DNA of 64,000 nucleotides from Bacteroides sp. (GTDB taxonomy: Bacteria > Bacteroidota > Bacteroidia > Bacteroidales > Muribaculaceae): positions 1 to 64,000 of the forward strand of contig JAAVEA010000031.1 of assembly GCA_014801535.1 (NCBI GenBank), read 5' to 3'. The notes under the pieces are model-generated. The model was not told the DNA's origin and searched no databases. It worked only from the letters and a program-made list of their open reading frames with translations. Both the position numbers and the translations under genes were made by a program. Positions within the stretch are counted from its first letter, which is position 1; each line of letters opens with the position of its first letter. This document shows positions 1,266 through 17,289 of this stretch, in pieces.

Positions 1266-1297
1266 TTTGCGTATTGTGAAAAAAATATGTAATTTTG
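1266..1297 (+). promoter_or_regulatory. Promoter for the purE leader/purine operon
   Basis: TTTG at 1266-1269, a 20-base spacer, and TAATTTTG at 1290-1297 match the Bacteroidota -33/-7 consensus (TTTG / TAnnTTTG). It lies 12 bases after the upstream stop codon and predicts a start near 1304, giving a leader of about 255 bases before purE. Confidence 0.75.
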
Positions 1298-1317
1298 CAA
1301 TTCAAATGGATTGAAAT

Positions 1318-1460
1318 GATTCAGCATATAGGTCACATATCCGCACAGACATTCATCCGGAAGCGAAAACGCCCGGAGATTATGGCGGAGTGTGCTGAAA
1401 CATAAAAGGATAGATTGCGCGCGTCAGGCGAAAAAGACTGACGCGCGCAAAATTTTTATT
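1318..1460 (+). ncRNA. Candidate cis-regulatory leader RNA (aptamer-like stem plus terminator)
   Basis: Closing helix TTCAGCA (1320-1326) pairs with TGCTGAA (1393-1399). Inside it CAC (1334-1336) can pair with GTG (1390-1392), CCGC (1341-1344) with GCGG (1385-1388), and a cap CCGG/CCGG (1357-1360, 1373-1376) with GCG/CGC (1363-1365, 1370-1372) closes an AAAA loop. The 5' side has larger internal loops than the 3' side, which is typical of a ligand pocket rather than a simple hairpin. It is followed at 1414-1450 by a strong terminator-like hairpin. I do not recognise a known riboswitch consensus; ZTP, PRPP and purine aptamer signatures were looked for and not seen. The structure is seen in sequence; a regulatory role is inferred. 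Confidence 0.5.
1414..1460 (+). terminator. Terminator/attenuator hairpin in the purE leader
   Basis: A 13-bp perfect stem (TTGCGCGCGTCAG with CTGACGCGCGCAA; arms 1414-1426 and 1438-1450) is followed by AATTTTTATT. It sits downstream of the promoter at 1266-1297 and upstream of purE, so it would stop transcription of the purine operon unless read through. It could also end readthrough from the upstream gene. Confidence 0.7.
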
Positions 1461-1510
1461 AAAAATCCGATTATGGCATTAAAATGCCTTCCTAACTAAC
1501 CGCAAACAAA

Positions 1511-1536
1511 GCTGAATTCGGGCAACCTTGTTCAGC
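1511..1536 (+). promoter_or_regulatory. Third leader hairpin just upstream of purE
   Basis: GCTGAA (1511-1516) pairs with TTCAGC (1531-1536). The arms repeat the closing-helix sequences at 1320-1326 and 1393-1399, so alternative pairings are possible. It ends 24 bases before the purE ATG. A smaller hairpin GGCAT/ATGCC lies at about 1475-1488. Nothing else recognisable fills 1461-1560. Confidence 0.4.
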
Positions 1537-1560
1537 TATCAAAAATATTCAGGTAGAAAA

Positions 1561-2028
1561 ATGAAAGTAGGAATTGTGATGGGCTCGGCCAGCGACCTCG
1601 GAGTTATGAAGGGCGCAGGGGAGACACTTGCCAAATTCGGCGTAGAGTATGAACAGAAGATTTATAGTGCACACCGCACACCACGCGAACTCGAGGCGTG
1701 GGTGACAAGCCTCCGCGACCGTGGCTTCGGCGCCATCATCGCAGCAGCAGGAGGCGCGGCTCACCTTGCCGGTGTTGTAGCGGCTTTCACTACGCTTCCC
1801 GTGATCGGTGTTCCCGTAAAATCACGCTCTTTGGAGGGTCTTGACTCCCTTCTATCAATGGTTCAGATGCCAAGCGGCATCCCCGTGGCAACGGTGGCTA
1901 TCGACGGCTCGAAGAATGCCGCCCTCCTGGCGATCGAGATGCTTGCCATAACCGATGAAAACCTTAAAAACAAATTAGATGAATTCCGCGCCGAACAGGC
2001 CGCGAATGTATTAGCCAATAATAACTGA
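1561..2028 (+). CDS. purE: N5-carboxyaminoimidazole ribonucleotide mutase (PurE, class I)
   Basis: 155 aa. Converts N5-CAIR to CAIR in de novo purine synthesis, in the cytosol. The N-terminal MGSASDL motif (residues 8-14), SAHRTP (about 42-47) and the AAGGAAHL stretch (about 63-70) are the class I PurE active-site signatures. The start chosen is the ATG at 1561 (MKVGIVMG), which begins directly on the conserved fold; a TTG 33 bases upstream in frame would add an unconserved tail and falls inside a leader hairpin. First gene of the purine run, 4 bases before purL, and behind the candidate regulatory leader. A purK partner is not in the window. Confidence 0.96.
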   Translation: MKVGIVMGSASDLGVMKGAGETLAKFGVEYEQKIYSAHRTPRELEAWVTSLRDRGFGAIIAAAGGAAHLAGVVAAFTTLPVIGVPVKSRSLEGLDSLLSMVQMPSGIPVATVAIDGSKNAALLAIEMLAITDENLKNKLDEFRAEQAANVLANNN

Positions 2029-2032
2029 TCTG

Positions 2033-5000
2033 ATGAATCACCGCATTTTTGTTGAAAAACGCGATCCATACCGCATCGAGGCGGAAAGCCTCCGCAAGGA
2101 ACTCAATTCCAATCTGGGTCTCGATATAAAAGACCTGCGCTTCCTCTGCGTATATGACCTGTTCGGCTTCACTCCCGAACTGATCGAGAACAGCCGCTAC
2201 CGTGTGTTTGGCGAACCTGCCACCGACAACGTGACCGACAGTGTGGAAACCGACGGACGTCCTTTCCTTGCAATCGAATGCCTGCCGGGCCAGTTCGACC
2301 AGCGCGCCGCCTCTGCACGCGAATGCGTCAATCTCCTTCAGCCCGATGCTGATGTGGAGATCAGCAGTGCCACAATGATGATTTTTGATGACACTGTAGG
2401 GGAGGAGGAACTGAAAAAGATTGCCAAATATACCATCAATGCCGTTGAGTCGAGGGAAAAGAACCTCGACGTTCTTGCACGTCCGGAACGCGCCCACGCC
2501 AAACCGGTGGAACGCCTCGACGGTTTCCGCAACATAAAGGCTGAAGAGGCCGCGGCATACTGCAAGGAGAAAGGATTGGCAATGAATGGCGACGACCTGA
2601 TGGAGGTTGTGAAATATTTCACAGCAGAGGGTCGCGATCCCAATGAGACTGAGCTTCGCATCCTCGACACATATTGGAGCGACCATTGCCGTCACACCAC
2701 CTTCACCACAGAGCTTACCGACATCGAGGTTGAGGATTCACCTATGGCCGAGACGCTCAAAGAGAGCGTGGAGCAATGGAAGGAGATCCGCCGCGCGTTA
2801 GGACGCGAGAATAAGAGCCTTTGCCTTATGGATCTCGCCACAATCGGTGCGCGCTACCTCCGAAAGGAGGGTCTGCTCGACGACCTTGAACAGAGCGAGG
2901 AGAACAATGCTTGCTCAATATTCGTGGACGTTGATGTAGACGGCGAGACCGAACGCTGGCTTTTGCAATTCAAAAACGAGACTCATAACCATCCCACCGA
3001 GATAGAACCTTTCGGAGGGGCCTCAACCTGTCTTGGCGGCGCCATCCGCGACCCGTTGAGCGGACGAAGCTACGTATATCAGGCTATGCGCGTCACCGGT
3101 GCCGGCGACATATATCTACCAGTCAGCGAGACAATGGAAGGTAAGCTACCTCAGCGCGTGATTTCGCTCCGCGCCGCCGCCGGATATTCCAGCTATGGCA
3201 ACCAGATCGGTCTTGCCACAACTCATGTGCGTGAGATCTATCACCCCGGATATGTTGCAAAACGCCTTGAAGTAGGCGCAGTAGTGGGTGCGGTCAAAGC
3301 TTCTGACGTTCGTCGCGAGCGTCCCGAAGCCGGCGATGTAATCCTTATGTTCGGTGGACGCACCGGACGCGACGGCATAGGCGGAGCCACAGGTTCATCA
3401 AAAGAGCATAACACCAGCTCACTCGAAGAGTGCGGCAGCGAGGTGCAGAAAGGTAATGCCCCCGAAGAGCGCAAGATCGCTCGTCTTTTCCGTCGCCCGG
3501 AAGTGACTCGCCTTATAAAGAAATCCAACGACTTCGGCGCAGGCGGTGTCAGCGTGGCTATCGGTGAGCTCACCGACGGTCTGGACATCTACCTCGACCG
3601 TGTCACTACAAAATATAGCGGCCTTAACGCCACTGAGCTTGCCATCTCCGAATCTCAGGAACGTATGTCGGTGGTGGTAGAGGCAAAAGATAAGGAGGAA
3701 TTCGAGCGTTACTGCGCTGAGGAGAACCTTGAAATCCGCCACGTCGCAGATGTGACCGACAGCGGACGCATGAGAATGTATTATAATGGAGAGGTAGTGG
3801 CCGACCTAAGCCGTGAATTCATCGATTCAGCCGGTGCGCGCCATTACGCCAAGGTAAAGATAGGTGCCATAGAACCTAAGGATGCGTTCAACCGCACTCC
3901 GGAGGGAAGTACTCTCCGTGAGCGTTTCCTCAGTAACCTTGCCGACGACAACGTGACTTCTCAGAAAGGACTTATCGAGATGTTCGACTCCTCGATAGGT
4001 GCATCGACAGTGCTTATGCCTTTCGGCGGACGCACTCAGGGCACGGAGACACAGGTGAGTGTGCAGAAACTCCCCGTAGGGAATCATTTCACCAACACCG
4101 CCTCAATGATGGCCTACGGCTTCAATCCCTACCTGAGCAGTTGGAGCCCCTTCCACGGTTCACAATATGCAGTTATCAGCGCAATTGCAAAAGCAGTGGC
4201 CGCCGGTGCGGAATATCCCAAGATGCGTTTCTCATATCAGGAATATTTCGAGCGCATGCACAACGAGCTTTCCTGGGGGAAGCCACTTGCGGCTCTCTTG
4301 GGAACGCTAAAGATGCAACTCGATTTCGGACTTGCTTCAATCGGTGGCAAGGACTCTATGAGCGGCACTTTCGATAAGATTTCCGTACCCCCTACATTGA
4401 TAGCATTCGGGGTTGCACCCGTTGATGCCCGCAAGGTAATATCACCCGAATTTAAGAAAGCCGGCGATAACATATATCTTGTAAAACATACACCTAACGC
4501 TGACCTCACACCCGATACCGACGCACTCAAAGCCCTATTCACAGCCGTGACGGAGAATATCCATAACGGCAAGATTGTATCGGCCTATGCAGTTGATTTC
4601 GGTGGAGTAGGCGAGGCCGTGGCAAAAATGAGCTTCGGTAACGAGATCGGTGCCGAAATCAGCATCGATGAGAATGAACTCTTCGCCTCCGGCAACGGCT
4701 CTATCGTTGTAGAGACAGAGGGGGAACTCGATATTCCCGGTGCAATTCTCTTGGGACATACCCTCGACAAACCGGAACTTACTATCAACGGTGAGACAAT
4801 CACCATTGATGAGGCACGCGAGGCCAACACCGCCCGATTCACACAGGTCTATCCCGACAGAAGCGGAGTGAAGGGAGAGGTTGCAAATGCCACCTCGGGC
4901 CCCAACACCACAGTATGGCCCGGAGAACCAATTGAGCATCCACGTGTATATCTCCCCGTATTCCCCGGTACTAACTGCGATTACGATATGTGGAAAGCAT

Positions 5001-5740
5001 TCGAGAAAGAGGGGGCGAAAGTGAGCAGCAGCGTGTTCCGCAACCTCACGGCAGAGGATATCGAAGCTTCCGTGAAAGAGATGGCTGAGCATATCGACAA
5101 TTGCGAGATACTTGCATTCAGTGGCGGCTTCTCAGCCGGTGACGAACCCGACGGCAGCGGTAAGTTCATCGCTAACGTGATCATGAATGAAACCGTGAAG
5201 GGCGCTATCGAGCGTCTTATGGCTCGCGGAGGTCTTATTCTTGGAATCTGCAACGGTTTCCAGGCTCTCGTGAAATCCGGATTGTTACCCTATGGTAAGA
5301 TCGGCGAGCTGAATGCTGACTCTCCCACACTCTTCCACAACGATATCAATCGTCATATATCCCAGATCGTGTCTACACGCGTAGCCTCGGTAGCATCGCC
5401 CTGGCTTGCAGGTTTCCAGCTCGGGGAGCTTCACAGTGTTGCCGCCTCTCACGGAGAAGGTAAATTCACGGCATCTGCCGAACTCGCCAAGAGTCTCTTC
5501 GCCAACGGTCAGATCGCCTTCCAGTATGCCGATGCAGCCGGAAACGCCACAATGACTTCACCGGCCAATCCCAACGGCTCGACTGATGCCATCGAAGGTA
5601 TCATCTCCCCCGATGGCCGCATCTTAGGAAAGATGGCTCATTCAGAGCGTTTCCACGAAGGTCTGATGAAGAATATCGAAGGAAATAAGAACCAGAACTT
5701 ATTCCTGAATGCAATCAATTATTTCAGAAAACAGCAATAA
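2033..5740 (+). CDS. purL: Phosphoribosylformylglycinamidine synthase (PurL, large single-chain form)
   Basis: 1235 aa. Makes FGAM from FGAR, glutamine and ATP (purine step 4). This is the long fused form, with N-terminal, FGAM synthetase and C-terminal glutaminase domains in one chain, not the split PurS/PurL/PurQ set. The ETHNHPTEIEPFGGA motif lies near residue 320. The C-terminal class I amidotransferase has its nucleophile at Cys1073 (GICNGFQ) and the triad His1140 (AASHGEGK). The start at 2033 is 4 bases after purE. Length is close to the usual Bacteroidota form (about 1230). Confidence 0.97.
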   Translation: MNHRIFVEKRDPYRIEAESLRKELNSNLGLDIKDLRFLCVYDLFGFTPELIENSRYRVFGEPATDNVTDSVETDGRPFLAIECLPGQFDQRAASARECVNLLQPDADVEISSATMMIFDDTVGEEELKKIAKYTINAVESREKNLDVLARPERAHAKPVERLDGFRNIKAEEAAAYCKEKGLAMNGDDLMEVVKYFTAEGRDPNETELRILDTYWSDHCRHTTFTTELTDIEVEDSPMAETLKESVEQWKEIRRALGRENKSLCLMDLATIGARYLRKEGLLDDLEQSEENNACSIFVDVDVDGETERWLLQFKNETHNHPTEIEPFGGASTCLGGAIRDPLSGRSYVYQAMRVTGAGDIYLPVSETMEGKLPQRVISLRAAAGYSSYGNQIGLATTHVREIYHPGYVAKRLEVGAVVGAVKASDVRRERPEAGDVILMFGGRTGRDGIGGATGSSKEHNTSSLEECGSEVQKGNAPEERKIARLFRRPEVTRLIKKSNDFGAGGVSVAIGELTDGLDIYLDRVTTKYSGLNATELAISESQERMSVVVEAKDKEEFERYCAEENLEIRHVADVTDSGRMRMYYNGEVVADLSREFIDSAGARHYAKVKIGAIEPKDAFNRTPEGSTLRERFLSNLADDNVTSQKGLIEMFDSSIGASTVLMPFGGRTQGTETQVSVQKLPVGNHFTNTASMMAYGFNPYLSSWSPFHGSQYAVISAIAKAVAAGAEYPKMRFSYQEYFERMHNELSWGKPLAALLGTLKMQLDFGLASIGGKDSMSGTFDKISVPPTLIAFGVAPVDARKVISPEFKKAGDNIYLVKHTPNADLTPDTDALKALFTAVTENIHNGKIVSAYAVDFGGVGEAVAKMSFGNEIGAEISIDENELFASGNGSIVVETEGELDIPGAILLGHTLDKPELTINGETITIDEAREANTARFTQVYPDRSGVKGEVANATSGPNTTVWPGEPIEHPRVYLPVFPGTNCDYDMWKAFEKEGAKVSSSVFRNLTAEDIEASVKEMAEHIDNCEILAFSGGFSAGDEPDGSGKFIANVIMNETVKGAIERLMARGGLILGICNGFQALVKSGLLPYGKIGELNADSPTLFHNDINRHISQIVSTRVASVASPWLAGFQLGELHSVAASHGEGKFTASAELAKSLFANGQIAFQYADAAGNATMTSPANPNGSTDAIEGIISPDGRILGKMAHSERFHEGLMKNIEGNKNQNLFLNAINYFRKQQ

Positions 5741-5749
5741 CAGAATATA

Positions 5750-6781
5750 ATGGCAAAAAGTTATGAAGCATCCGGTGTGAATCTTGAAGCCGGATATGAG
5801 GTGGTAAGCCGCATCAAGAAGCATGTAAAGAGTACTGAACGCTCCGGAAGCATGGGCAACATCGGCTCCTTCGGAGGGATGTTCGATCTCGGAAGCCTTG
5901 GATACGAGCATCCGGTATTGGTCAGCGGCACTGACGGTGTCGGCACCAAACTTAAGATCGCTTTCGCCCTTGAAAAGCACGACACCATAGGTATCGACGC
6001 CGTTGCAATGTGTGTGAACGATGTGCTTGCACAAGGCGCCGAACCATTGTTGTTCCTCGACTACGTAGCCGTAGGCAAGAATCATCCGGAAGTGGTTGAA
6101 GCCATTGTATCGGGAGTGGCCGAAGGTTGCCGTCAGGCAGGATGTGCGCTTGTCGGAGGTGAGACAGCCGAGATGCCGGGCATGTATACTGTGGGTGAAT
6201 ATGATATTGCGGGCTTCACTGTCGGTGTCGTAGAAAAATCAAAACTTATCGACGGCTCGAAAGTAGCTCCCGGTGACCTTCTTATAGGTATCGCCTCCTC
6301 AGGTGTTCACTCTAACGGCTTCTCTCTTGTGAGAAAGGTGATTAGCGATGCTGACCTTGAATATGACCAGAAATATGAGGAGACCGGCGACCAGACCTTA
6401 GGCGAAATGCTTCTTACGCCTACAAAAATATATGTTAAGCAGGTGCTTGCCGTTTTAAAAGAAGTTGATGTACATGGAGTGGCCCATATCACAGGCGGTG
6501 GCTTCGATGAGAATATTCCTAGAATCCTAAAAGAGGGTCAGGGAGTAGAGATTGAGGAAGGAAGCTGGGAAATTCTTCCTGTGTTCGGACTGTTGGAGAA
6601 ATATGGTAAAATTCCTCACCGTGAGATGTTCAATATCTTCAATATGGGAATCGGAATGGTTCTCGCCGTGAAACCCGAAGATGCTCCCCGCGTGCTCGAA
6701 ATCCTTACAGAGAAAGGGGAGAAGGCATCTGTGATCGGAAAAATTGTAGAATCGGAAAACGGAGGCGTCACAATAAGATAA
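5750..6781 (+). CDS. purM: Phosphoribosylformylglycinamidine cyclo-ligase (AIR synthetase, PurM)
   Basis: 343 aa. Closes the imidazole ring: FGAM plus ATP gives AIR (purine step 5). Motifs typical of the PurM/SelD-like ATP-binding fold are present: [13 protein letters not shown] near residue 60, [19 protein letters not shown] near 84-102, and [11 protein letters not shown] near 137. [13 protein letters not shown] lies in the C-terminal half. The start 9 bases after purL supports co-transcription. The 85-base gap that follows holds a repeat described separately. Confidence 0.96.
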
Positions 6782-6840
6782 ATCATGACGAATCATGATG
6801 CAACTTGATTATACATGATGAATCTTGATGCTAAATGATT
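6782..6840. repeat. Intergenic ATCATGA/TCWWGATGC repeat cluster
   Basis: The purM-purH gap is filled by degenerate short units: AATCATGA twice (starting at 6781 and 6791), TCATGATGC (6793-6801) and TCTTGATGC (6823-6831), and it ends in ATGATT, the complement of its opening AATCAT. The same TCWWGATGC unit recurs twice in the murE-mraY gap and related units form the palindrome after purD. Confidence 0.6.
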
Positions 6841-6866
6841 AAAAAAGAATAATTTAAAATTTATAT

Positions 6867-8396
6867 ATGAGAGCATTAATCAGCGTAAGCGACAAAAGAG
6901 GCATCGTAGAGTTTGCCAAGTCACTCAAGGAACTCGGGTGGGACATCATAGCCACCGGGGGCACTATGACTAAACTCCGCGAGGCCGGTATCGAAGTAAT
7001 CAACATCAGCGACGTTACAGGTTTCCCAGAAATCTGCGACGGACGTGTGAAGACTCTTCATCCTAAAGTTCACGGAGGACTTCTCGGGCGCCGTGATCTT
7101 GCCGACCATATGGCTCAGCTTGAAGCCAACGGCATAGAGACAATCGAGATGGTTTGCGTCAATCTTTATCCGTTTGAGGCAACAATCGCAAAGGAGGGTG
7201 TGACACTGGAAGATGCCGTTGAAAATATCGATATAGGTGGTCCTTCAATGCTCCGTTCTGCCGCCAAGAACTTCCGCGACGTGACCGTGGTGTGCGATCC
7301 CGATGATTACGATAAAGTTCTCGCCGAACTTCGTGCCAACGGACACACAGAATACGAAACACGTTTCAAACTTTCCGCCAAAGCTTATACTCATACAGCG
7401 GAATATGACAGCCATATTGCAACCTACATGCGCAAGCATGCAGGGCTCGATGAGAAACTTTTCCTTGCCTTCGATGCTGTTCAGAGCCTCCGCTATGGTG
7501 AGAATCCTCATCAGAATGCTATGTTCTACCGTGCAGAGGAAGAGGTTCCTTTCTCGGTGGCCTTCGCAAAACAGCTCGGCGGCAAAGAGCTTTCATACAA
7601 TAACATCCAGGATGCAAACGCGGCGCTCCAGCTCGTGCGCGAATTTGACGCTCCTTTCTGTCTCGGCCTTAAGCACATGAATCCCTGCGGAGCCGCAATA
7701 GGCGAGACAATAAAAGAGGCTTGGGAAAAGACCTACGAAGCTGACAAGGTTTCAATATATGGTGGCATCGTGGCTATGAACCGTCCGTTGGATGCAGAGA
7801 CCGCCAAGCTTCTCAAACCGATCTTCCTTGAAATCGTGATGGCTCCCAAATTCGAGCCGGAAGCGCTTGAAGTACTCGCAAGCAAGAAGAATCTACGTCT
7901 GCTTGAAGTGAATATGGAGAAATCCGACAAGAAGCAGAAACAATATGTCGGTGTAACCGGTGGTCTGCTCGTCCAGGATGCCGACCTTGAATGCAAGGAG
8001 ATCACAGAGGATATGTGTGTCACAGAAGTTAAGCCTACAGCTGAACAGCTTGTTGACCTCAACTTCGGCTGGAAGGTTGTGAAACACGTTAAGTCTAACG
8101 CTATCGTTGTTGTCAAGAACGGTGCAACCGCAGGTGTTGGCGCAGGGCAGATGAACCGTGTGGGTTCGGCCCATATCGCCCTCGAAGAGGCAAAGGCAGC
8201 CGGACTGACAGAAGGACTTGTGCTTGCTTCCGACGGCTTCCTTCCTTTTGATGACACCGTTGAACTCGCTTCAAAATATGGTGTGACAGCAATCGTTCAG
8301 CCCGGTGGCTCTATCCGCGACGAGGATGCCATCAAGAAAGCCAACGAGAAAGGGATAACAATGTTGTTCACAGGCATGCGCCATTTCAAACACTGA
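6867..8396 (+). CDS. purH: Bifunctional AICAR transformylase / IMP cyclohydrolase (PurH)
   Basis: 509 aa. Carries out the last two steps to IMP: formyl transfer from 10-formyl-THF to AICAR, then ring closure. The N-terminal MGS-like IMP cyclohydrolase domain contains CVNLYPF (residues about 97-103) and GGPSMLRSAAKN; the C-terminal transformylase carries the catalytic KHMNPCG motif. Length is normal for bacteria (about 510-530). Its 10-formyl-THF donor depends on enzymes such as FolD, encoded at 59351. The stop is separated from purD by one base. Confidence 0.97.
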   Translation: MRALISVSDKRGIVEFAKSLKELGWDIIATGGTMTKLREAGIEVINISDVTGFPEICDGRVKTLHPKVHGGLLGRRDLADHMAQLEANGIETIEMVCVNLYPFEATIAKEGVTLEDAVENIDIGGPSMLRSAAKNFRDVTVVCDPDDYDKVLAELRANGHTEYETRFKLSAKAYTHTAEYDSHIATYMRKHAGLDEKLFLAFDAVQSLRYGENPHQNAMFYRAEEEVPFSVAFAKQLGGKELSYNNIQDANAALQLVREFDAPFCLGLKHMNPCGAAIGETIKEAWEKTYEADKVSIYGGIVAMNRPLDAETAKLLKPIFLEIVMAPKFEPEALEVLASKKNLRLLEVNMEKSDKKQKQYVGVTGGLLVQDADLECKEITEDMCVTEVKPTAEQLVDLNFGWKVVKHVKSNAIVVVKNGATAGVGAGQMNRVGSAHIALEEAKAAGLTEGLVLASDGFLPFDDTVELASKYGVTAIVQPGGSIRDEDAIKKANEKGITMLFTGMRHFKH

Positions 8397-8397
8397 T

Positions 8398-9645
8398 ATG
8401 AAGACACTTGTAATAGGTAGCGGAGGCCGCGAACACGCAATAGTGGAAGCATTAAGCCGAAGCCCTCAGGTAGATAAGATATATTGCGCACCCGGAAACG
8501 CCGGAATCTCAAAACTCGCTGAATGCGTCAACATCGGTGTAACCGATATTGACGCTCTTGCAGATTTCGCAGAGCGAGAAAAGATAGATATGACGGTTGT
8601 CGGTCCCGAAGCGGCCCTGGCAGCCGGAGTGGTGAATCTCTTCAACGAACGCGGTCTAAAAATCTTCGGGCCTACTAAAGAAGCAGCCCGCATAGAGAGC
8701 AGCAAGGAATATGCCAAGCAGGTTATGGAGCGTTTCAATGTTCCGACTGCCGGTTATCGCGCATTTGACAACTATGAGGAAGCTCTCGCATATATAAAAG
8801 CCGGCAAGATACCGACCGTGATCAAATATGACGGCCTGGCAGCCGGCAAAGGGGTTGTGGTGGCTATGTCGCTCGATGAGGCCGATGCCGCATTGAAGGA
8901 TATGCTTCTTGACTCCTCTTTCGGAAAAGGAAGAGTGGTAATCGAGGATTTCCTTGAGGGTCCGGAGTTCAGCTTCATGTGTGTTGTGTCAGGCGATAAG
9001 GTTTATCCTCTTGAACTCGCCCAGGATCACAAACGTGCATATGATGGCGACAAGGGACCGAATACCGGTGGGATGGGGGCGTATTCTCCTGTTCCTTTCA
9101 TTGGTGAGGATGTTAAAGACAGAGCTCTTAACGAAATTATCAAGCCTGTGGCCGAAGGTCTCGTTAAAGAGGGGAATCCCTTCACCGGCATTCTATACGG
9201 AGGCCTTATCCTGACGGAAGACGGTCCAAAGGTGATAGAATTCAACGCTCGCTTCGGTGATCCGGAGACAGAAGTGGTGCTCCCGAGAATGAAGAGCGAT
9301 ATTTATGCTCTTTTCGATGCCGCTCTAAAGGGTGAGGATTTCGAGATTGAATGGGACACAGACGCTGTGTTGGGAGTGGTTCTCGCTTCAAAAGGATATC
9401 CCGGCAGTTATGAGAAAGGGGCTGAGATAACAGGCCTTGATGTTGTGAAAGGCAGCGTTTATCATATGGGTACGGCTCTTAAAGATGGTAAACTTCTCAC
9501 TGCCGGTGGCCGTGTCCTTATGGTCACCGGAAAGGGAGCGACTCTCGATGAAGCTCATAAAGCAGCCATGGAAAGCCTTGGCAATATAGAATGTCCTTCG
9601 CTCTTCCATAGAAGCGATATCGGAAAAGCCGCAGTGAAAATTTAA
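8398..9645 (+). CDS. purD: Phosphoribosylamine-glycine ligase (GARS, PurD)
   Basis: 415 aa. ATP-grasp enzyme joining phosphoribosylamine and glycine (purine step 2). It begins MKTLVIGSGGREHAI, the standard PurD N-terminus, with GNAGI in the N domain, KYDGLAAGKGVVVA in the ATP-grasp domain and FNARFGDPE near residue 280. One base separates it from the purH stop, so translation is probably coupled. The gap that follows contains a perfect 46-bp palindrome. Confidence 0.97.
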   Translation: MKTLVIGSGGREHAIVEALSRSPQVDKIYCAPGNAGISKLAECVNIGVTDIDALADFAEREKIDMTVVGPEAALAAGVVNLFNERGLKIFGPTKEAARIESSKEYAKQVMERFNVPTAGYRAFDNYEEALAYIKAGKIPTVIKYDGLAAGKGVVVAMSLDEADAALKDMLLDSSFGKGRVVIEDFLEGPEFSFMCVVSGDKVYPLELAQDHKRAYDGDKGPNTGGMGAYSPVPFIGEDVKDRALNEIIKPVAEGLVKEGNPFTGILYGGLILTEDGPKVIEFNARFGDPETEVVLPRMKSDIYALFDAALKGEDFEIEWDTDAVLGVVLASKGYPGSYEKGAEITGLDVVKGSVYHMGTALKDGKLLTAGGRVLMVTGKGATLDEAHKAAMESLGNIECPSLFHRSDIGKAAVKI

Positions 9646-9660
9646 ATTCAGAAAGAGAGT

Positions 9661-9706
9661 TCATGAATCATCATGTTGAATCATGATTCAACATGATGAT
9701 TCATGA
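9661..9706. repeat. Perfect 46-bp palindrome between purD and purB
   Basis: Every base from 9661 to 9706 pairs with its mirror position with no mismatch and no central spacer; I checked it base by base. It is built from ATCATG/ATGATT words like those in the purM-purH gap. It starts 15 bases after the purD stop and ends 19 bases before the purB start. No T-tract follows directly (ATTAATTAAAAA), so it is not a classic terminator. Confidence 0.9.
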
Positions 9707-9725
9707 TTAATTAAAAAAAGAAAAA

Positions 9726-11024
9726 ATGATAGAAAGATATGGGCGCGAAGTGATGCGCCAGGTATGGACAGAAGAAAATAAGTTCAAGGCCTATCTTGAG
9801 GTGGAGATTCTTGCCGCCGAGGCCTGGAGCAAGCTCGGGGTTGTGCCCGAGGAGGATGTAAAGAAACTGCGCGACAACGCTCGTTTCGACATTGCCAGAA
9901 TCAAGGAGATTGAGCTTCAGACACGTCACGACATCGTGGCTTTCACAAGAGCTGTCAGCGAATCGCTTGGAGATGAAAGGAAATGGGTGCATTATGGCCT
10001 TACCTCAACAGACGTTGTTGACACAGCCAACGGTTATCTTTTCCTTCAGGCAAACAAGATTCTTCTCGCCGACATTGAGAACTATATTGAAATACTCCGC
10101 AAACAGGCCATAAAATATAAATACACACCCTGCATCGGACGCACCCACGGCATCCACGCCGACATCACCAGCTTCGGTTTGAAATGGGTGCTCTGGTATG
10201 AGGAGATGCGACGCAATCTCAAACGCTTCAAGGAGGCTGCCAGAGGTGTAGAAGTAGGTAAGATTTCGGGTGCCGTAGGCAATTTCGCCAATATCCCTCC
10301 ATTTGTACAGGATTATGTGTGCGAAAAACTCGGAATCGAAAGCTCCAATATCTCCACACAGGTGATACAGCGCGACCGCCACGCATATTACATGGCCACC
10401 ATTGCTCTTATCGGCGCTTCTCTTGAACAGATGGCTCTCGAAATCCGTAATCTCCAGCGCACAGAGGTGCATGAGGTGGAAGAAGCGTTCGGTAAGGGCC
10501 AGAAAGGTTCAAGCGCTATGCCCCACAAGCGTAACCCGATTTCTTCAGAGAATATCTGCGGATGTGCCCGCGTGCTGCGCGGATATATGGTCACAACCTA
10601 TGACAATGTGGCTTTATGGCACGAACGCGATATCTCTCACTCAGCCACAGAGCGCATACTTATGCCCGATGCCACAATACTTCTCGACTATATGCTGAAC
10701 CGAATGGGCGGCATTCTTGAGAATCTTGTGGTGTTCGAGGATAAGATGAAAAGTAATATCTATCTTACCAACGGCGTTATCTTCGCACAGCGCGTGATGA
10801 ATGCCCTCATCGGCAAAGGATTCGCCCGCGAGAAGGCCTATGACACTGTGCAGCCCATAGCCATGAAAGCCATGGCCACTAACTCCAACTATCATGATCT
10901 CCTCAAGGAAGATCCGACAGTAATGGGAGCCCTCACAGAAGAAGAACTCGACGGCTGCTTCACGCTCGACTACTATATGAAGAACGTAGATTACATTTAC
11001 AAACGCAATAAAATCGAAGACTGA
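9726..11024 (+). CDS. purB: Adenylosuccinate lyase (PurB)
   Basis: 432 aa. Cleaves SAICAR to AICAR and adenylosuccinate to AMP, acting in both the IMP pathway and AMP synthesis. The fumarase/aspartase superfamily signature [11 protein letters not shown] lies near residue 262. Upstream are [11 protein letters not shown] and RTHGIHAD, which hold the catalytic histidines. It begins [10 protein letters not shown], as expected. Its final base overlaps the purA ATG (TGATG), so the two are translationally coupled. Confidence 0.96.
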
Positions 11025-12316
11025 TGTCACAGAGATTAGTAGTGATCGGCTCCCAGTGGGGAGACGAAGGGAAAGGGAAAATCACTGATTATTTCGCATG
11101 CCGCGCCGATATGGTCGTAAGATATCAGGGAGGCAACAACGCCGGACACACCGTAGTGTTCGACGGACATAAATATTCCTTGCGTTCCATCCCCTCGGGT
11201 ATATTCAACCCGAAGACAGTTAACGTCATGGCCAATGGAATGGTCGTGAATCCCGAATCAGTCATCACGGAGCTTGGAAAACTCCATGATCAGGGAATCA
11301 CCGACTATCAGCTTTTCATATCCGATCGTGCGGCGATGGTCATGCCTTGGCATTCACAGCTCGACGGAGCGTATGAAAGCCTCAAAGGGAACGCACTTAT
11401 CGGCACCACAAAGAATGGCATCGGTCCGGCTTATTGCGACAAATACAGCCGCGACGGCCTCCGCATAGGCGATCTTCTGGAACCGGAATATTTCGCCGAA
11501 CGTCTAAAAGGTGCCTTAGCTGTCAAGAATCCTCAGCTTCGTATGCTCGGACTGCCGGAATATGATTTCCAGCAGGTTTACGACCGGTATATGGAGATAG
11601 CCAAGGAACTTGCACCTATGATCTGCGACACCTCCGACCTCATCAACCGCGCACTTCACACAGAAGCAAAAATCCTGTTTGAAGGAGCTCAGGGAATGAT
11701 GCTCTGTATCGACCATGGCACATATCCCTACGTCACTTCCTCAACACCCTCCTCTGCTTCAGTGCCTGTGGGTGCCGGCATATCACCGAAATGGATAGAC
11801 GAGGTTGTAGGCGTGGCAAAGGCTTACTGCACACGCGTGGGTGAAGGAGCCTTCCCCACAGAACTTTTCGATGAACGAGCTCATCAGATTCGTGAACGTG
11901 GACATGAATACGGAACCGTCACCGGCCGTCCGCGCCGCATCGGATGGTTTGACGCAGTAGTGGCCCGCTATACAAGCCGTCTTGCAGGTATCGACAACTG
12001 GGCACTCATGCTCTTCGATGTGCTTTCCGGTCTTGACAAGGTATGTATATGCACCGGATATGAGCTTGACGGCAAAGTTATAGATTATCCTCCATCTACT
12101 GTTTCAAAACTTGCCCGCTGTAAACCTGTGCTGATCGAGATGGAAGGCTGGAAAGAGGATCTTTCCGATATAAAGGATTATGATTCTCTACCGGAAGCTG
12201 CCAAGGCATATGTACGAAAGATCGAAGAGCTGACCGGTGTAAAGGTTGGTATCATATCAGTTGGTCCCGACCGTAAACAAACAATCATCATAGACGAAAA
12301 ACTAAAACAATTCTGA
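11024..12316 (+). CDS. purA: Adenylosuccinate synthetase (PurA)
   Basis: 430 aa. Commits IMP to AMP: IMP + Asp + GTP gives adenylosuccinate. The N-terminal GTP/IMP loop GSQWGDEGKGKITD is at residues 9-22, GTTKNGIGPAY is in the middle, and TVTGRPRRIGWFD near residue 300 is the C-terminal PurA signature. It overlaps the purB stop by one base and lies 7 bases before guaB, placing both branches from IMP in one transcript. Confidence 0.97.
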   Translation: MSQRLVVIGSQWGDEGKGKITDYFACRADMVVRYQGGNNAGHTVVFDGHKYSLRSIPSGIFNPKTVNVMANGMVVNPESVITELGKLHDQGITDYQLFISDRAAMVMPWHSQLDGAYESLKGNALIGTTKNGIGPAYCDKYSRDGLRIGDLLEPEYFAERLKGALAVKNPQLRMLGLPEYDFQQVYDRYMEIAKELAPMICDTSDLINRALHTEAKILFEGAQGMMLCIDHGTYPYVTSSTPSSASVPVGAGISPKWIDEVVGVAKAYCTRVGEGAFPTELFDERAHQIRERGHEYGTVTGRPRRIGWFDAVVARYTSRLAGIDNWALMLFDVLSGLDKVCICTGYELDGKVIDYPPSTVSKLARCKPVLIEMEGWKEDLSDIKDYDSLPEAAKAYVRKIEELTGVKVGIISVGPDRKQTIIIDEKLKQF

Positions 12317-12323
12317 TTCTGAG

Positions 12324-13799
12324 ATGGCATTTATAGATGAAAAAATCGTGCTCGAAGGAGTGACTTTCGACGACGTACTTCTGATACCGGCCTATTCTGA
12401 GGTAACACCCAATATGGTGATCCTGTCCGGTCGTTTCTCCCGTAATATCCCTCTAAATATACCTTTTGTATCGGCGGCAATGGATACCGTTACAGAGGCA
12501 GAGCTTGCAATCGCGATTGCCCGTGAGGGAGGAATAGGAGTGATCCATAAGAACATGTCGATCGCAGCGCAGGCCGCACAGGTCAGAAAAGTGAAACGTG
12601 CTGAAAGCGGCATGATCTACGATCCGATCACAATATCCAAAGATCAGACAGTAGGGGAGGCGCTTCAGCTCATGCACGACAACCGAATCGGCGGTATACC
12701 TGTGGTTGATGCCGATAACAAACTTATAGGTATAGTTACAAACCGCGATCTCCGTTTCCAGACTGATATGGACATGGCTATCGACAACGTAATGACAAAA
12801 GAGAATCTGGTAACTACCAACCGCACCGATCTCGCCTCCGCCGCAAATATTCTTCTCAAGAATAAAATAGAAAAACTTCCGGTGGTTGATGATGAAGGTC
12901 ATCTCTTGGGTCTGATCACATATCGCGATATAACAAAGGTTCAGGATTATCCTATGGCCTGTAAAGACTCTAAAGGTCGTTTGCGTGTTGCCGCCGGTGT
13001 GGGCGTGACAAGCGATACACTCGACCGCGTAAAGGCACTCGTTGAGGCCGATGTAGACGCGGTGGTCATAGATACAGCCCACGGTCATTCGGCAAACGTA
13101 GCCAATACTCTCAAAAAGGTAAAGGCAGCATATCCGGCACTTGATGTGGTGGTGGGAAATATCGCCACTGGAGAGGCCGCAAAGCATCTCATCGAGGCGG
13201 GAGCCGACGGTGTTAAGGTCGGTATCGGCCCTGGTTCGATATGCACAACCCGAATCGTGGCAGGCGTGGGCGTACCCCAGCTTTCAGCAATCTTCGAAGT
13301 GGCTAAGGTGGCACACCAGTATGACGTGCCTGTAATAGCCGACGGTGGATTACGCTATTCCGGAGATGTGGTCAAGGCTCTTGCCGCCGGGGGCGACTGC
13401 GTAATGATGGGTTCAATGTTTGCCGGAGTTGAAGAATCTCCGGGTGAAACCATCATCTATAACGGACGTAAGTTCAAGGCTTATCGTGGCATGGGATCAG
13501 TGGAGGCTATGGAGGCCGGTTCCAAAGACCGTTATTTCCAAAGCGAGAAAGCTGATTCAAGCAAATTTGTGCCTGAAGGTATCGTGGCCCGCGTTCCCTA
13601 TAAAGGAACTTTAAGCGAGACAATATACCAGCTTACAGGGGGACTGCGTTCAGGCATGGGATATTGTGGTGCTAAAGATATCGATGCCCTTCACAACGCG
13701 AAATTCACTAAAATAACCTCTGCCGGTGTAACTGAGAACCATCCTCATGACGTGACAATCACTAAGGAGGCACCCAATTACTCACGACGCGAAGCATAA
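12324..13799 (+). CDS. guaB: Inosine-5'-monophosphate dehydrogenase (GuaB)
   Basis: 491 aa. Oxidises IMP to XMP with NAD+, the first step toward GMP. It is a TIM barrel interrupted by a tandem CBS (Bateman) regulatory insert at about residues 95-210 ([10 protein letters not shown] and KIEKLPVVD repeats). The catalytic loop is GPGSICTTR with nucleophile Cys307. The flap region [10 protein letters not shown] is present. Full length; the CBS pair usually binds adenine or guanine nucleotides to tune activity (family knowledge). Four bases separate it from guaA. Confidence 0.97.
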
Positions 13800-13803
13800 A
13801 AAA

Positions 13804-15330
13804 ATGGAAAAAATTTTAATATTAGATTTCGGATCCCAGTATACTCAGCTAATCGCACGCCGTGTGCGGGAGCTGAATGTATATTGCGAGATTCATCCTT
13901 TCAATAAGATTCCGGAGATTGATGCCGATACTAAAGGCGTTATTCTTTCGGGTTCCCCCTCTTCGGTGCGCGATGAGGATGCACCCGTGCCCGATCTGAG
14001 CAATATAAAGGGAAAACTCCCGCTGCTCGGCGTATGCTATGGAGCCCAATATCTGGCCTATGCTTACGGTGGACATGTAGAAGGAGCGCCTTCAAGAGAA
14101 TATGGTCGCGCCATGCTGACAGTGGTGGATCCTGCGGATGCTCTCATGAAAGGCCTCCCTTCTCCCACTCAGGTATGGATGAGCCACGGCGACACAATCA
14201 CCGACGTGCCGGAAAACTATAAAGTTATCGGTTCGACTGAGAATGTAAAATATGCCGCATATCATATCGAAGGAGAGCAGACATGGGGAATTCAGTTCCA
14301 TCCCGAGGTGTACCATTCTACCGACGGGAAACAGCTTCTTGCCAACTACGTTCTCGGCATATGCGGTTGCTCCGGCACCTGGAGTCCGGCTTCATTCATC
14401 GAGACTACAGTAGAGGAACTGAAAGGGAAAATCGGCGACGAACGCGTGATTCTCGGTCTCTCCGGTGGTGTTGACTCTTCTGTAGCCGCCATGCTTCTCC
14501 ACAAAGCTATAGGCGACAAGCTAACATGTATATTCGTGAACAACGGGCTTCTGCGAAAGAATGAATTTGACGATGTTTTAGACTCCTACAAAGGGATGGG
14601 TCTGAACGTAATCGGTGTGGATGCCTCAGAGCGCTTCTATAACGATCTTAAAGGCATTACTGATCCGGAGCAGAAGCGCAAGATTATTGGCCGTGACTTT
14701 GTTGAAGTATTCAACGCGGAAGCCAAGAAGATTGAGAATGCACGATGGCTCGCCCAAGGCACCATCTATCCCGATGTTATTGAAAGCTGCTCAGTCAAAG
14801 GTCCTTCTGCCACCATCAAGAGTCACCACAATGTGGGAGGCCTCCCCAAGGAAATGAATCTCAAGATTGTAGAGCCGTTGCGTTTGCTCTTCAAAGATGA
14901 GGTTCGCCGTGTGGGGAAAGCAATGGATATGGATCCGCGTCTCTTGGGTCGTCATCCTTTCCCCGGCCCCGGACTTGGAATCCGCATCCTCGGAGAAGTC
15001 ACACCGGAGAAAGTGCGCATCCTCCAGGAAGCCGATGCAATATTCATCAACGGCCTTCGCGAAGCCGGCCTTTACGATCAGGTTTGGCAGGCGGGAGTCA
15101 TGCTCCTACCCGTGCAAAGTGTAGGCGTTATGGGTGATGAACGCACTTATGAAAGCTGTGTTGCCCTCCGCGCCGTAATCTCCACCGACGGGATGACAGC
15201 CGACTGGGTACATCTTCCATACGAATTCCTTGCCAAGACCAGCAACGAGATCATCAACAAAGTGCGTGGCATCAACCGCGTAGTCTATGATATCTCCTCC
15301 AAGCCACCAGCAACAATCGAGTGGGAGTAA
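13804..15330 (+). CDS. guaA: GMP synthase, glutamine-hydrolysing (GuaA)
   Basis: 508 aa. Converts XMP to GMP using glutamine and ATP. The N-terminal class I amidotransferase has its nucleophile at Cys78 (GVCYGAQ) and IQFHPEV with the catalytic His. The ATP-pyrophosphatase P-loop LSGGVDSS follows near residue 219, and the C-terminal dimerisation domain ends in KPPATIEWE, the normal GuaA terminus. Last gene of the + strand purine run; a bidirectional terminator follows at once. Confidence 0.98.
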
Positions 15331-15414: not shown

Positions 15415-17289
15415 TTATCTCGCGTTGTGTCGTCCTTCATAGTAGTTGATGAAGGCTTTGGAGACGAGGCGGTTGCCACCGGGGGTGGGGTAGTCACCGG
15501 TGAAATACCAGTCACCGGGATGGTCTGGTATGGCACGGTGCATGTTATCTACGGTCTGATATACTATCTCCACTTCAGATTTGATCCCCTCGGGGCGTAA
15601 CAGCTCCGCTATCTTGGCAGCTATCTCTTCATCTGTGAAGGGAGCATATATCTCCTTGACATAGTTCACGCATTCCTCTTTGGGAAGGTTCTCCTGAGCC
15701 TTGCATTTGTGATATACGGAATCTATGATGTAACTCATTCCACGTTCTCTGAGAAGCTCTATGGCCGCCTTAAAGGCGATAAACTCCGACATGCGGCTCA
15801 TATCAATTCCATAACAGTCAGGATAACGAACCTGAGGCGATGAGGAAACGATTACCAGCTTGCGCGGTGAGAGGCGGTCGAGAATGCGGAGAATGGATTC
15901 ACGTAACGTGGTGCCACGCACTATGCTGTCGTCAATAGCGACCAGATTATCTCCCGGATTTATAGAGCCATATGTGATGTCATACACATGAGCCGCCAGA
16001 TCATTACGGGTGTTACCTTCGGCTATGAAGGTACGCAACTTGATATCCTTGATTGCAACCTTCTCCTTGCGCACCCTATGGGCAAGCACATCGCGTATGT
16101 TATCGTCGGTCAATGCACCGATTGAGGAAAGCCTTTGGATCTCTTCAATCTTTTTCTTGATAAGATTCTCCTCGATCCCTTCCACAAGACCATAAAATGC
16201 CACTTCCGCCGTATTGGGAATGAACGATATGACCGTCCTGTCTATGTCATTATTTACAGCTTTCAGCACCTGAGGCACCAGGTTTTTACCCAGTTGTTTA
16301 CGCTCACTATAAATATCTCTGTCAGAGCCGCGGGAGAAATATATCCTTTCGAAAGAACATCGTTTATTCGCACCGGCCGGCAAAATCTGTTCTATTCGCG
16401 ACGAACCGTCGCGGTCAACTATAATCGCTTCGCCCGGAAGAAGCTCCTTTATATCGGAAACCTGAAGGTCGAACGCAGTCTGAATCACGGGGCGCTCACT
16501 CGCCACCACCACAATCTCCTCGTCACGGTAATAGAAAGCAGGGCGGATCCCGTTGGGGTCGCGCATAGCCCAGAGGTCGCCATTTCCTACAATTCCGCAG
16601 ATCACATAACCGCCATCCCATGTCGGGGCGCAGCGATGAAGGATATTGGATACATTGAGGTCGCGCGCTATAGCCGCCGATCGCTCCAGGCCTGTAAGGC
16701 CAGCGGAGTTATGAATCTCAAAAAGACGCTCATTCTCCCGGTCGAGGGCGTGACCGAGCTGTTCGAGAAGAAGGAAAGTGTCGGCATAAAGGCGCGGATG
16801 CTGACCAACGGCTGTGATCTGATCGAAAATCTCATCAACATTAGTCATATTGAAATTACCGCATAGAAGAAGATTGCGCGCCGACCAGTTGTTGCGTCGC
16901 ATGAAAGGATGCACGTAGCTCATTCCGGAGCGTCCGGTGGTGCTGTAACGTAAATGACCCATATATACCTCTCCGAGGAACGGGGTGTCTTCCAAAGATT
17001 CTCCTCTCTTGCGTGCATCCTCAATCTGGGAACCGATAGAAGCAAAAATCGTCTGGATTGCATCAGAACCTTGCGCACGCTCGCGGAAGATGTATTCATG
17101 ACCCGGAGACGCATCCAGCTTGACAGAACCCACTCCGGCCGCCTCCTGCCCTCGGTTATGCTCCTTCTCCATAATGAGATAGAGCTTATTAAGACCATAC
17201 ATCGCAGTGCCATATTTCTCCTCGTAATAAGACAGAGGTTTGAGGAGGCGGATCATAGCTATTCCGCATTCGTGCTTGATCAGTTCCAT
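15415..17289 (-). CDS. purF: Amidophosphoribosyltransferase family protein (long Bacteroidota PurF variant)
   Basis: 624 aa, against about 470-505 for classical PurF. Expected to make phosphoribosylamine from PRPP and glutamine, the first committed purine step. The class II glutaminase nucleophile is Cys8 (HECGIAMI), so the first seven residues must be removed for it to become N-terminal. RYSTTGRSG and GNFNMTN support a glutaminase domain. The PRPP-binding motif VAIDDSIVRGTT lies near residue 460. Extra segments lie between and after the two domains. It faces guaA across a shared terminator. A short canonical PurF may exist elsewhere in the genome, so the exact division of labour is uncertain. 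Confidence 0.85.
   Translation of the reverse strand: MELIKHECGIAMIRLLKPLSYYEEKYGTAMYGLNKLYLIMEKEHNRGQEAAGVGSVKLDASPGHEYIFRERAQGSDAIQTIFASIGSQIEDARKRGESLEDTPFLGEVYMGHLRYSTTGRSGMSYVHPFMRRNNWSARNLLLCGNFNMTNVDEIFDQITAVGQHPRLYADTFLLLEQLGHALDRENERLFEIHNSAGLTGLERSAAIARDLNVSNILHRCAPTWDGGYVICGIVGNGDLWAMRDPNGIRPAFYYRDEEIVVVASERPVIQTAFDLQVSDIKELLPGEAIIVDRDGSSRIEQILPAGANKRCSFERIYFSRGSDRDIYSERKQLGKNLVPQVLKAVNNDIDRTVISFIPNTAEVAFYGLVEGIEENLIKKKIEEIQRLSSIGALTDDNIRDVLAHRVRKEKVAIKDIKLRTFIAEGNTRNDLAAHVYDITYGSINPGDNLVAIDDSIVRGTTLRESILRILDRLSPRKLVIVSSSPQVRYPDCYGIDMSRMSEFIAFKAAIELLRERGMSYIIDSVYHKCKAQENLPKEECVNYVKEIYAPFTDEEIAAKIAELLRPEGIKSEVEIVYQTVDNMHRAIPDHPGDWYFTGDYPTPGGNRLVSKAFINYYEGRHNAR

Follow-up and report, generated by a model that had tools for sequence, protein, structure and literature searches.

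A short open reading frame that ends at the foot of a terminator points to probable ribosome-based attenuation of a Muribaculaceae purine operon

The sequence ahead of nine purine genes in this DNA (the window, meaning the whole stretch of 64,000 nucleotides that was analysed) is probably a tiny gene that ends at the foot of a terminator, and not a metabolite-binding RNA. Our preferred interpretation, which we hold with reasonable though not high confidence, is that this leader is a pause-synchronised, translation-coupled transcription attenuator read by the leading ribosome, following the logic of hisL and pyrBI. The sequence statistics that back it are the open frame, the position of its stop codon at the terminator, a motif near the N-terminus and a pause-like motif, along with the lack of a detectable antiterminator and the fact that the leader is missing from nearly all of the purF and other-type purE genes examined. 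Translation, pausing, readthrough and a GTP or purine signal are the parts of the attenuator that we infer. The features of the locus are as follows:

1266..1297, + strand: predicted Bacteroidales-type promoter, from its sequence (TTTG at 1266-1269, 20-nt spacer, TAATTTTG at 1290-1297)
1316..1405, + strand: leader short open reading frame (sORF) of 29 codons plus TAA, predicted peptide MIQHIGHISAQTFIRKRKRPEIMAECAET; open from ATG to TAA, with clade A relatives aligned
1334..1342, + strand: codons CAC ATA TCC (His-Ile-Ser), the in-frame N-terminal motif [HNYD]-I-S
1358..1372, + strand: Arg-Lys-Arg-Lys-Arg, codons 15-19, from the sequence
1384..1395, + strand: pause-like element GGCGGAGTGTGC (G-10 at 1384, T-3 G-2 at 1391-1392, T-1 at 1393, G+1 at 1394)
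1415..1457, + strand: intrinsic terminator (stem 1415-1427/1438-1450, T tract 1453-1457), 9 nt past the sORF stop
1458..1560, + strand: spacer to purE without TAnnTTTG, with a GCTGAA/TTCAGC hairpin at 1511-1536
1561..15330, + strand: operon purE-purL-purM-purH-purD-purB-purA-guaB-guaA, named by NCBIfam

The first-pass annotation had read the region as a promoter, an aptamer-like stem, a terminator hairpin and nine purine genes, in the order of a transcriptional riboswitch or attenuator. Much of this is borne out: the order promoter, leader, terminator and genes is supported, as is attenuation, but the aptamer is not. The candidate promoter fits what we take to be the Bacteroidales consensus, the 13-bp GC-rich hairpin with its T-rich stretch is present (-25.2 kcal/mol, z -6.0 in a shuffle comparison), and all nine genes follow in the order given. 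A simple motif and hairpin scan of the window reported neither promoter nor terminator, because it covers only sigma-70 hexamers and loops of 3-8 nt, and the terminator loop is 10 nt. The leader element has a single match in the window's own genome (65.6% complete). Upstream, an ORF at 103-1254 that matches PDDEXK_9 and AAA-ATPase_like stops 61 nt ahead of the sORF start; its true start is probably outside the window edge. At 15415-17289 (- strand), a 624-aa ORF convergent with guaA had weak purF-model matches in a genome search and no Pfam match at 1e-5.

Leaders in relatives were located with the motif TAnnTTTG. From 212 loci we obtained 83 leaders (duplicates included) in which TAnnTTTGY lies 150 nt or more ahead of a purE with an identity of at least 59%, and these were reduced to 52 cluster representatives with less than 12% of 9-mers common to any two. 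The source records of seven representatives bear the labels Alistipes, Rikenellaceae or Tidjanibacter, and those of a few bear other labels. Many of the 52 have an sORF just ahead of an intrinsic terminator. The sORF has 29 codons in clade A, which includes the window, and 45 in clade C; in clade B it has 56 in nine of 12 and the remainder run on. Other sORFs start M[RS]QSKHIS or MRQPRNIS. Two leaders are very short, L207 (MMSKPRNISQ, then the terminator) and L190 (MEISSMKISISM), and are perhaps minimal or decaying forms. L033 has a tRNA gene (1709-1793) downstream of its promoter-like element and ahead of the purE sORF, and L198 has the same leader.

For 46 of the 52 representatives a terminator of -13 kcal/mol or better was found. 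An ORF of at least 20 aa ends between -12 and +3 nt from the stem in 33 of these 46, compared with a mean of 4.5 and a maximum of 10 in 200 rounds of dinucleotide-shuffled leaders. The longest ORF is the one that ends at the terminator foot in 30 (shuffle mean 3.9). No 20-aa ORF ends there in the other 13. Some terminators among the 16 longest-ORF misses look mis-called (e.g. L176), the frame passes through the terminator in L007, L008, L170 and L179, and some clade B frames have no stop.

The same geometry was found in a second family, f112. Of its 26 window-type loci, eight have no promoter motif at least 150 nt upstream and one has no terminator, which leaves 17 that could be tested, the motif here being TAnnTTTG with the Y dropped and terminators being accepted at any energy (that of L319 is at -12.0). 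Fourteen of the 17 were positive (shuffle mean 2.2, maximum 7, 300 rounds), ten by the longest-ORF count (shuffles 1.8), and three have no 20-aa ORF ending there. One leader, L312, is identical to L046 of the first set, and excluding it gives 13 of 16; the other 16 have at most 7% of 9-mers in common with any first-set representative. Counted by clusters, 12 of 15 are positive.

Since genes normally end ahead of terminators, the sORF could be a separate small gene that has a terminator to itself, with purE expressed, unregulated, through incomplete termination or an unrecognised second promoter. The conserved N-terminal motif described below would suit a functional small protein, and the 103 nt between the T tract and purE in the window could hold a promoter. 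We nevertheless consider this very unlikely. Among 321 ordinary genes, 79 have a terminator, with quartiles of 19, 26 and 40 nt for the gap from stop to stem, and only eight of the 79 have a gap of 10 nt or less. The fair contrast is with the 33 of 46 leaders in which the stop abuts the hairpin, because the sORF gaps themselves were preselected at -3 to 13 nt. The distance from terminator to purE start is at most 60 nt in 13 of the 17 second-family leaders, TAnnTTTG occurs 3' of the terminator in just one of the 46 representatives (L172; a motif-based count), and the constraint on the peptide is weak.

That constraint was estimated within clades. Six clade A relatives have 29-codon sORFs and the frame is open in all seven rows of the alignment; after column permutation, all rows remained open in 6 of 1000 trials for clade A and in 0 of 1000 each for clades B and C. 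The pN/pS ratio is 0.63 in clade A (51 of 1000 permutations as low) and 0.67 in clade C (54 of 1000); in clade B it is 0.92 (343 of 1000) and constraint on the peptide is undetectable. Overall, these values suggest weak to modest constraint, and an open frame with so little peptide constraint would fit a device in which translating itself matters. Directly ahead of the sORF start, at 1306-1314 of the window, is a two-codon ORF, ATG GAT TGA, also present in three of six close relatives (L003, L168 and L006).

The bases that the first-pass annotation had folded into an aptamer are those of the open reading frame at 1316-1405, which it had overlooked. Its helices (closing helix 1320-1326/1393-1399 and inner helices) are those of the minimum free energy fold, with correct coordinates, and the fold at 1316-1405 is stable (-33.5 kcal/mol, z -5.3, 0 of 200 shuffles as stable). 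The proposal that followed, an unclassified riboswitch with its aptamer at 1316-1403, can point to this strong fold in the window and in four tested clade A relatives (five clade A sORFs have z values from -2.3 to -5.3) and to the order of the parts. Strong folding is not general, though: z lies above -2 in 24 of 32 sORFs and below -2 in eight, with a mean of -1.0, a partial folding that an RNA-sensor view also predicts. Forming a pause hairpin is one possible use of sORF folding.

Covariation in the proposed helices, by which the first-pass annotation would have been judged, was not in excess among seven clade A leaders, a weak test with so few rows: the score was 0.114 vs 0.111 in shuffled alignments, with 209 of 500 as high, the structure was paired in 82.4% of cells vs 81.3%, and two pairs had changed on both sides vs 1.6. 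Of 13 outer pairs, five are broken in L169, three in L004 and one each in L003 and L005, with none or one in the other relatives. The 5' strand of the outer helix varies in 7 of 13 columns and the 3' strand in 3 of 13; the latter encodes a rather constant peptide end, [AMS]EC[AV][ED]T. A possible alternative helix between ACATATC and GGAGTGTG in clade A (90% of cells paired) would also suit a riboswitch, but it too showed no excess covariation in the seven sequences. The pairs in the leader part of the clade C consensus fold are mostly invariant or changed on one side. At gathering score, a search of the window and 36 loci against Rfam, the route suggested for finding a known riboswitch class, returned only two tRNAs (window and L033); for 1200-1620 there were weak matches only, far below cut-off. 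Rfam, covariation and the clade C consensus fold speak against an aptamer, which would also have no place for frame-locked N-terminal motifs or the stop-terminator geometry, and we consider a riboswitch improbable, even though a frame-independent conserved string (GTGTGC, below) would be natural for one. A search for an antiterminator, pairing the sORF with the 5' arm of the terminator, gave a mean z of 0.13 over 32 leaders, with no excess over shuffles. The TTCAGC/GCTGAA pair of the outer helix occurs twice in the window, in the sORF (1320-1325, 1394-1399) and in the post-terminator hairpin (1511-1516, 1531-1536); no second pair was seen in the spacers of L003, L004, L005 and L006.

The N-terminal half of the sORF appears, from codon patterns, to be constrained as a peptide, [HNYD]-I-S followed by basic residues. 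In 58 sORFs, which were picked for ending near a hairpin, are non-redundant across residues 1-15 only and contain a few short ORFs of doubtful status (L007, L021, L047 and L205), Ile is present at codons 6-10 in 39, and H, N, Y or D directly precedes it in 28 of these 39 vs 18 of 109 for later Ile; the sORFs share descent, so these counts are not independent. The string ACATATC is in a single frame in 17 of 18 occurrences within sORFs, as is CGAAAGC in 12 of 13 within those of relatives. The motif codons vary synonymously (CAG/CAA, AGG/CGG, CCC/CCT and CGA/CGC, in a table selected by the motif), and the in-frame motif with varied codons is present in both leader families. Because H, N, Y and D are the amino acids of NAY codons, a link to queuosine was considered and rejected, as the motif alone backs it and the conserved ACATA string explains the motif equally well.

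These features raise the alternative of a ligand- or codon-sensing leader peptide, in which ribosome arrest at (H/N/Y/D)-Ile-Ser or at the basic segment would set terminator folding in answer to a purine-linked signal; TnaC, SpeFL, Erm-like or his-like systems are the models. Besides a motif common to two families, such a peptide could account for the composition of 37 sORF peptides, which are basic, rich in Met and Cys and poor in Pro and Trp, and for their use of CGA, AGG and ATA codons, higher than in four window operon genes. It would also suit L207, which keeps little beyond the motif (MMSKPRNISQ) before its terminator. Against it, the motif sits near the sORF start, which in long leaders is a long way from the terminator, whereas in L207 the two adjoin. 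No run of a single regulatory or end-product codon occurs in the 37 peptides, the antiterminator was not found, and the C-terminal halves look different between clades, so that we regard a sensing peptide as unlikely, if less so than a riboswitch. No known peptide family emerged for three sORFs: NCBIfam gave none, and the single Pfam match (E 0.062, below cut-off) was at chance level.

The second conserved element is placed in the 3' half of the sORF. The most enriched 6-mer in the 58 sORFs is GTGTGC, with 30 copies in 29 sORFs vs 2.5 expected from a 464-kb background made up of the window and 400 kb of G147, which belongs to a different genus of the family; GTGTGC is missing from the other 29, and its reverse complement is not enriched (3 vs 2.5 expected). 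Its copies lie 67-149 nt from the ATG on one side and 20-101 nt from the terminator on the other, and their frames (11/8/11) are independent of the reading frame, unlike those of the N-terminal motifs. RNA-polymerase pause cores carry T-3 and G-2 as well as the bases at -10, -1 and +1, and GTGTGC fits this consensus, which is of E. coli origin. The full pattern G-10 T-3G-2Y-1G+1 is present in 41 of the 58 sORFs, vs 14.5 (maximum 24) in gene starts and 13.6 (maximum 23) inside genes over 300 draws, and in 10 of 13 second-family sORFs. A G at -10 in some register accompanies 26 of the 30 GTGTGC copies vs 46% of 286 genomic GTGTGC. The bare G-10 Y-1 G+1 is so common that it has no discriminating power (55 of 58 vs 55.0; 415 copies vs 285). 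The consulted portions of PMC9291695 give the published consensus as G-10 Y-1 G+1, with G+1 most important, place the hisL pause within its leader peptide, where it is proposed to allow the ribosome to reach the polymerase, and list leuL, pheL, thrL, pheM and pyrL pauses that bear the consensus.

In the attenuator that we favor, polymerase would start near 1304 and transcribe the 29-codon leader gene, and the pause-like element (U1393|G1394) in the 3' half of the sORF would give a ribosome time to load and catch up. When GTP, the next nucleotide, or purine nucleotides in general are scarce, polymerase would be slow, the ribosome would follow closely to the stop at the terminator foot, the hairpin would be hindered and the purine genes would be transcribed; when purines are plentiful, polymerase would escape first, the hairpin would fold and transcription would end. 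No antiterminator being detectable, the simplest actuator would be the ribosome itself, as in pyrBI, and a stop codon at the hairpin foot would bring a following ribosome maximally near without the hairpin being translated. A ribosome covers about 10 nt beyond the stop codon and the gap in the window is 9 nt, so a ribosome at the stop would only just reach the stem and direct occlusion would be marginal; here a ribosome pushing the polymerase would count for more.

A more specific version, about which we are tentative and which we rate clearly below attenuation as such, is that GTP is what is sensed, with polymerase, by virtue of clustered G+1 pause cores in the leader gene, as sensor and the ribosome halted at the hairpin-foot stop as actuator. 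Pause cores with G+1 would, we presume, tie polymerase speed to GTP, whose precursor GMP comes from the last two operon genes, guaB and guaA. If true, at least two families of Bacteroidales would regulate their purine/GMP operon in this way, with no repressor, riboswitch or antiterminator involved, and the leader would be a purine counterpart of the UTP-sensing pyrBI leader.

Among the closest known systems is E. coli pyrBI. There, according to the accessible sections of the sources, a pausing polymerase gives the ribosome the chance to keep the hairpin from forming, in a translated leader ORF with an intrinsic terminator (PMC10135430, PMC5021804), and 49% of the pyrL template requires U (PMC10135430). 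The purE leader would share the leader ORF (here predicted to be translated), the terminator and the logic of ribosome and pausing, and its ORF likewise reaches the terminator, to within 9 nt of the stem in the window. It differs in preceding purine genes, in its phylum, in having candidate pause cores with G at +1 and in not being strongly enriched in the limiting nucleotide: the leaders are not clearly purine-rich, with A+G at 55.6% vs 53.2% in four operon genes. The geometry also differs, in that the stop abuts the hairpin in the purE leader and the pyrL ORF runs through it.

The his, trp and leu attenuators likewise have a short leader gene, and the consensus pause inside it is proposed, in the portions of the source consulted, to synchronise ribosome and polymerase (PMC9291695). 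As in those systems, a predicted translatable short ORF lies between promoter and terminator, and the terminator lies between the ORF and purE with no promoter motif between them but for the one exception among 46. In contrast to them, the purE leader precedes purine synthesis, has no product codon run (the product is a nucleotide) and no detected antiterminator. Purine-linked riboswitches (the ZTP, PRPP, purine and xanthine classes) have the pathway and the place before biosynthetic genes in common with the purE leader; the latter differs in being an ORF and in having no Rfam match at gathering score beyond the two tRNAs. Within the Bacteroidota, Bacteroides thetaiotaomicron has sORFs within long 5' UTRs that have been described as reminiscent of attenuation, with BT_4401 as an example that was not validated, and no purine leader is among those in the consulted part of that source (PMC7366714).

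Leader-peptide attenuation is known for amino acids and pyrimidines; what would be new here is its use for purine synthesis and in this phylum, with the stop codon at the hairpin foot. In the open-licence literature (most subscription journals are outside it, and purE is a weak search term) we found no description of purine leader-peptide attenuation or of a purE, Bacteroidetes or Muribaculaceae riboswitch. A leader-peptide attenuator would give gut Bacteroidales a purine regulator of a kind undescribed in that literature, add purines to the amino acids and pyrimidines as targets of ribosome-based attenuation, and suggest that transcription and translation in Bacteroidota are coupled tightly enough for gene regulation. 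The locus also illustrates that a stable fold can mimic a riboswitch though it is really a coding leader.

The distribution of the leader was compared like for like by scoring a terminator at or below -13 kcal/mol located within 430 nt and an ORF of at least 20 aa ending at -12 to +3, with at least 300 nt of upstream sequence and no promoter demanded. Positive loci numbered 44 of 68 for window-type purE (identity at least 66%; 66 with a terminator; duplicates kept), 2 of 63 for type-2 purE (18 with a terminator) and 0 of 12 for the window-type purE of family f9 (four with a terminator). With the promoter demanded as well, 46 of 58 were positive and zero control loci qualified; looser limits gave 3 of 64 type-2 purE and 1 of 12 in family f9. 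In that family TAnnTTTGY is at most 50 nt from purE in 7 of 12, and f9 seems to be without this leader. Of 28 purF genes, two have an ORF of at least 9 aa (29 and 15 aa) whose end is close to a called hairpin.

In 13 of the 52 clusters, though not in the window's leader, the 5' UTR carries a motif around ATAACCG that precedes the sORF start. A DNA operator or second locus sought through it was rejected: a 13-base pattern had five matches in eight genomes, two in purE leaders and three without a recognised purine gene in about 3 kb (2.1 kb for L267), and no regulon was found.

Of 111 genomes of the window's genus, 83 have the window-type purE (at least 60% identity over at least 150 of 155 residues). 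The rest comprise one with a partial copy, 15 with a type that is about 50% identical and 12 in which no purE was found. The two purE types (83 vs 15 genomes) seem to replace each other, and a history of replacement or transfer is likely.
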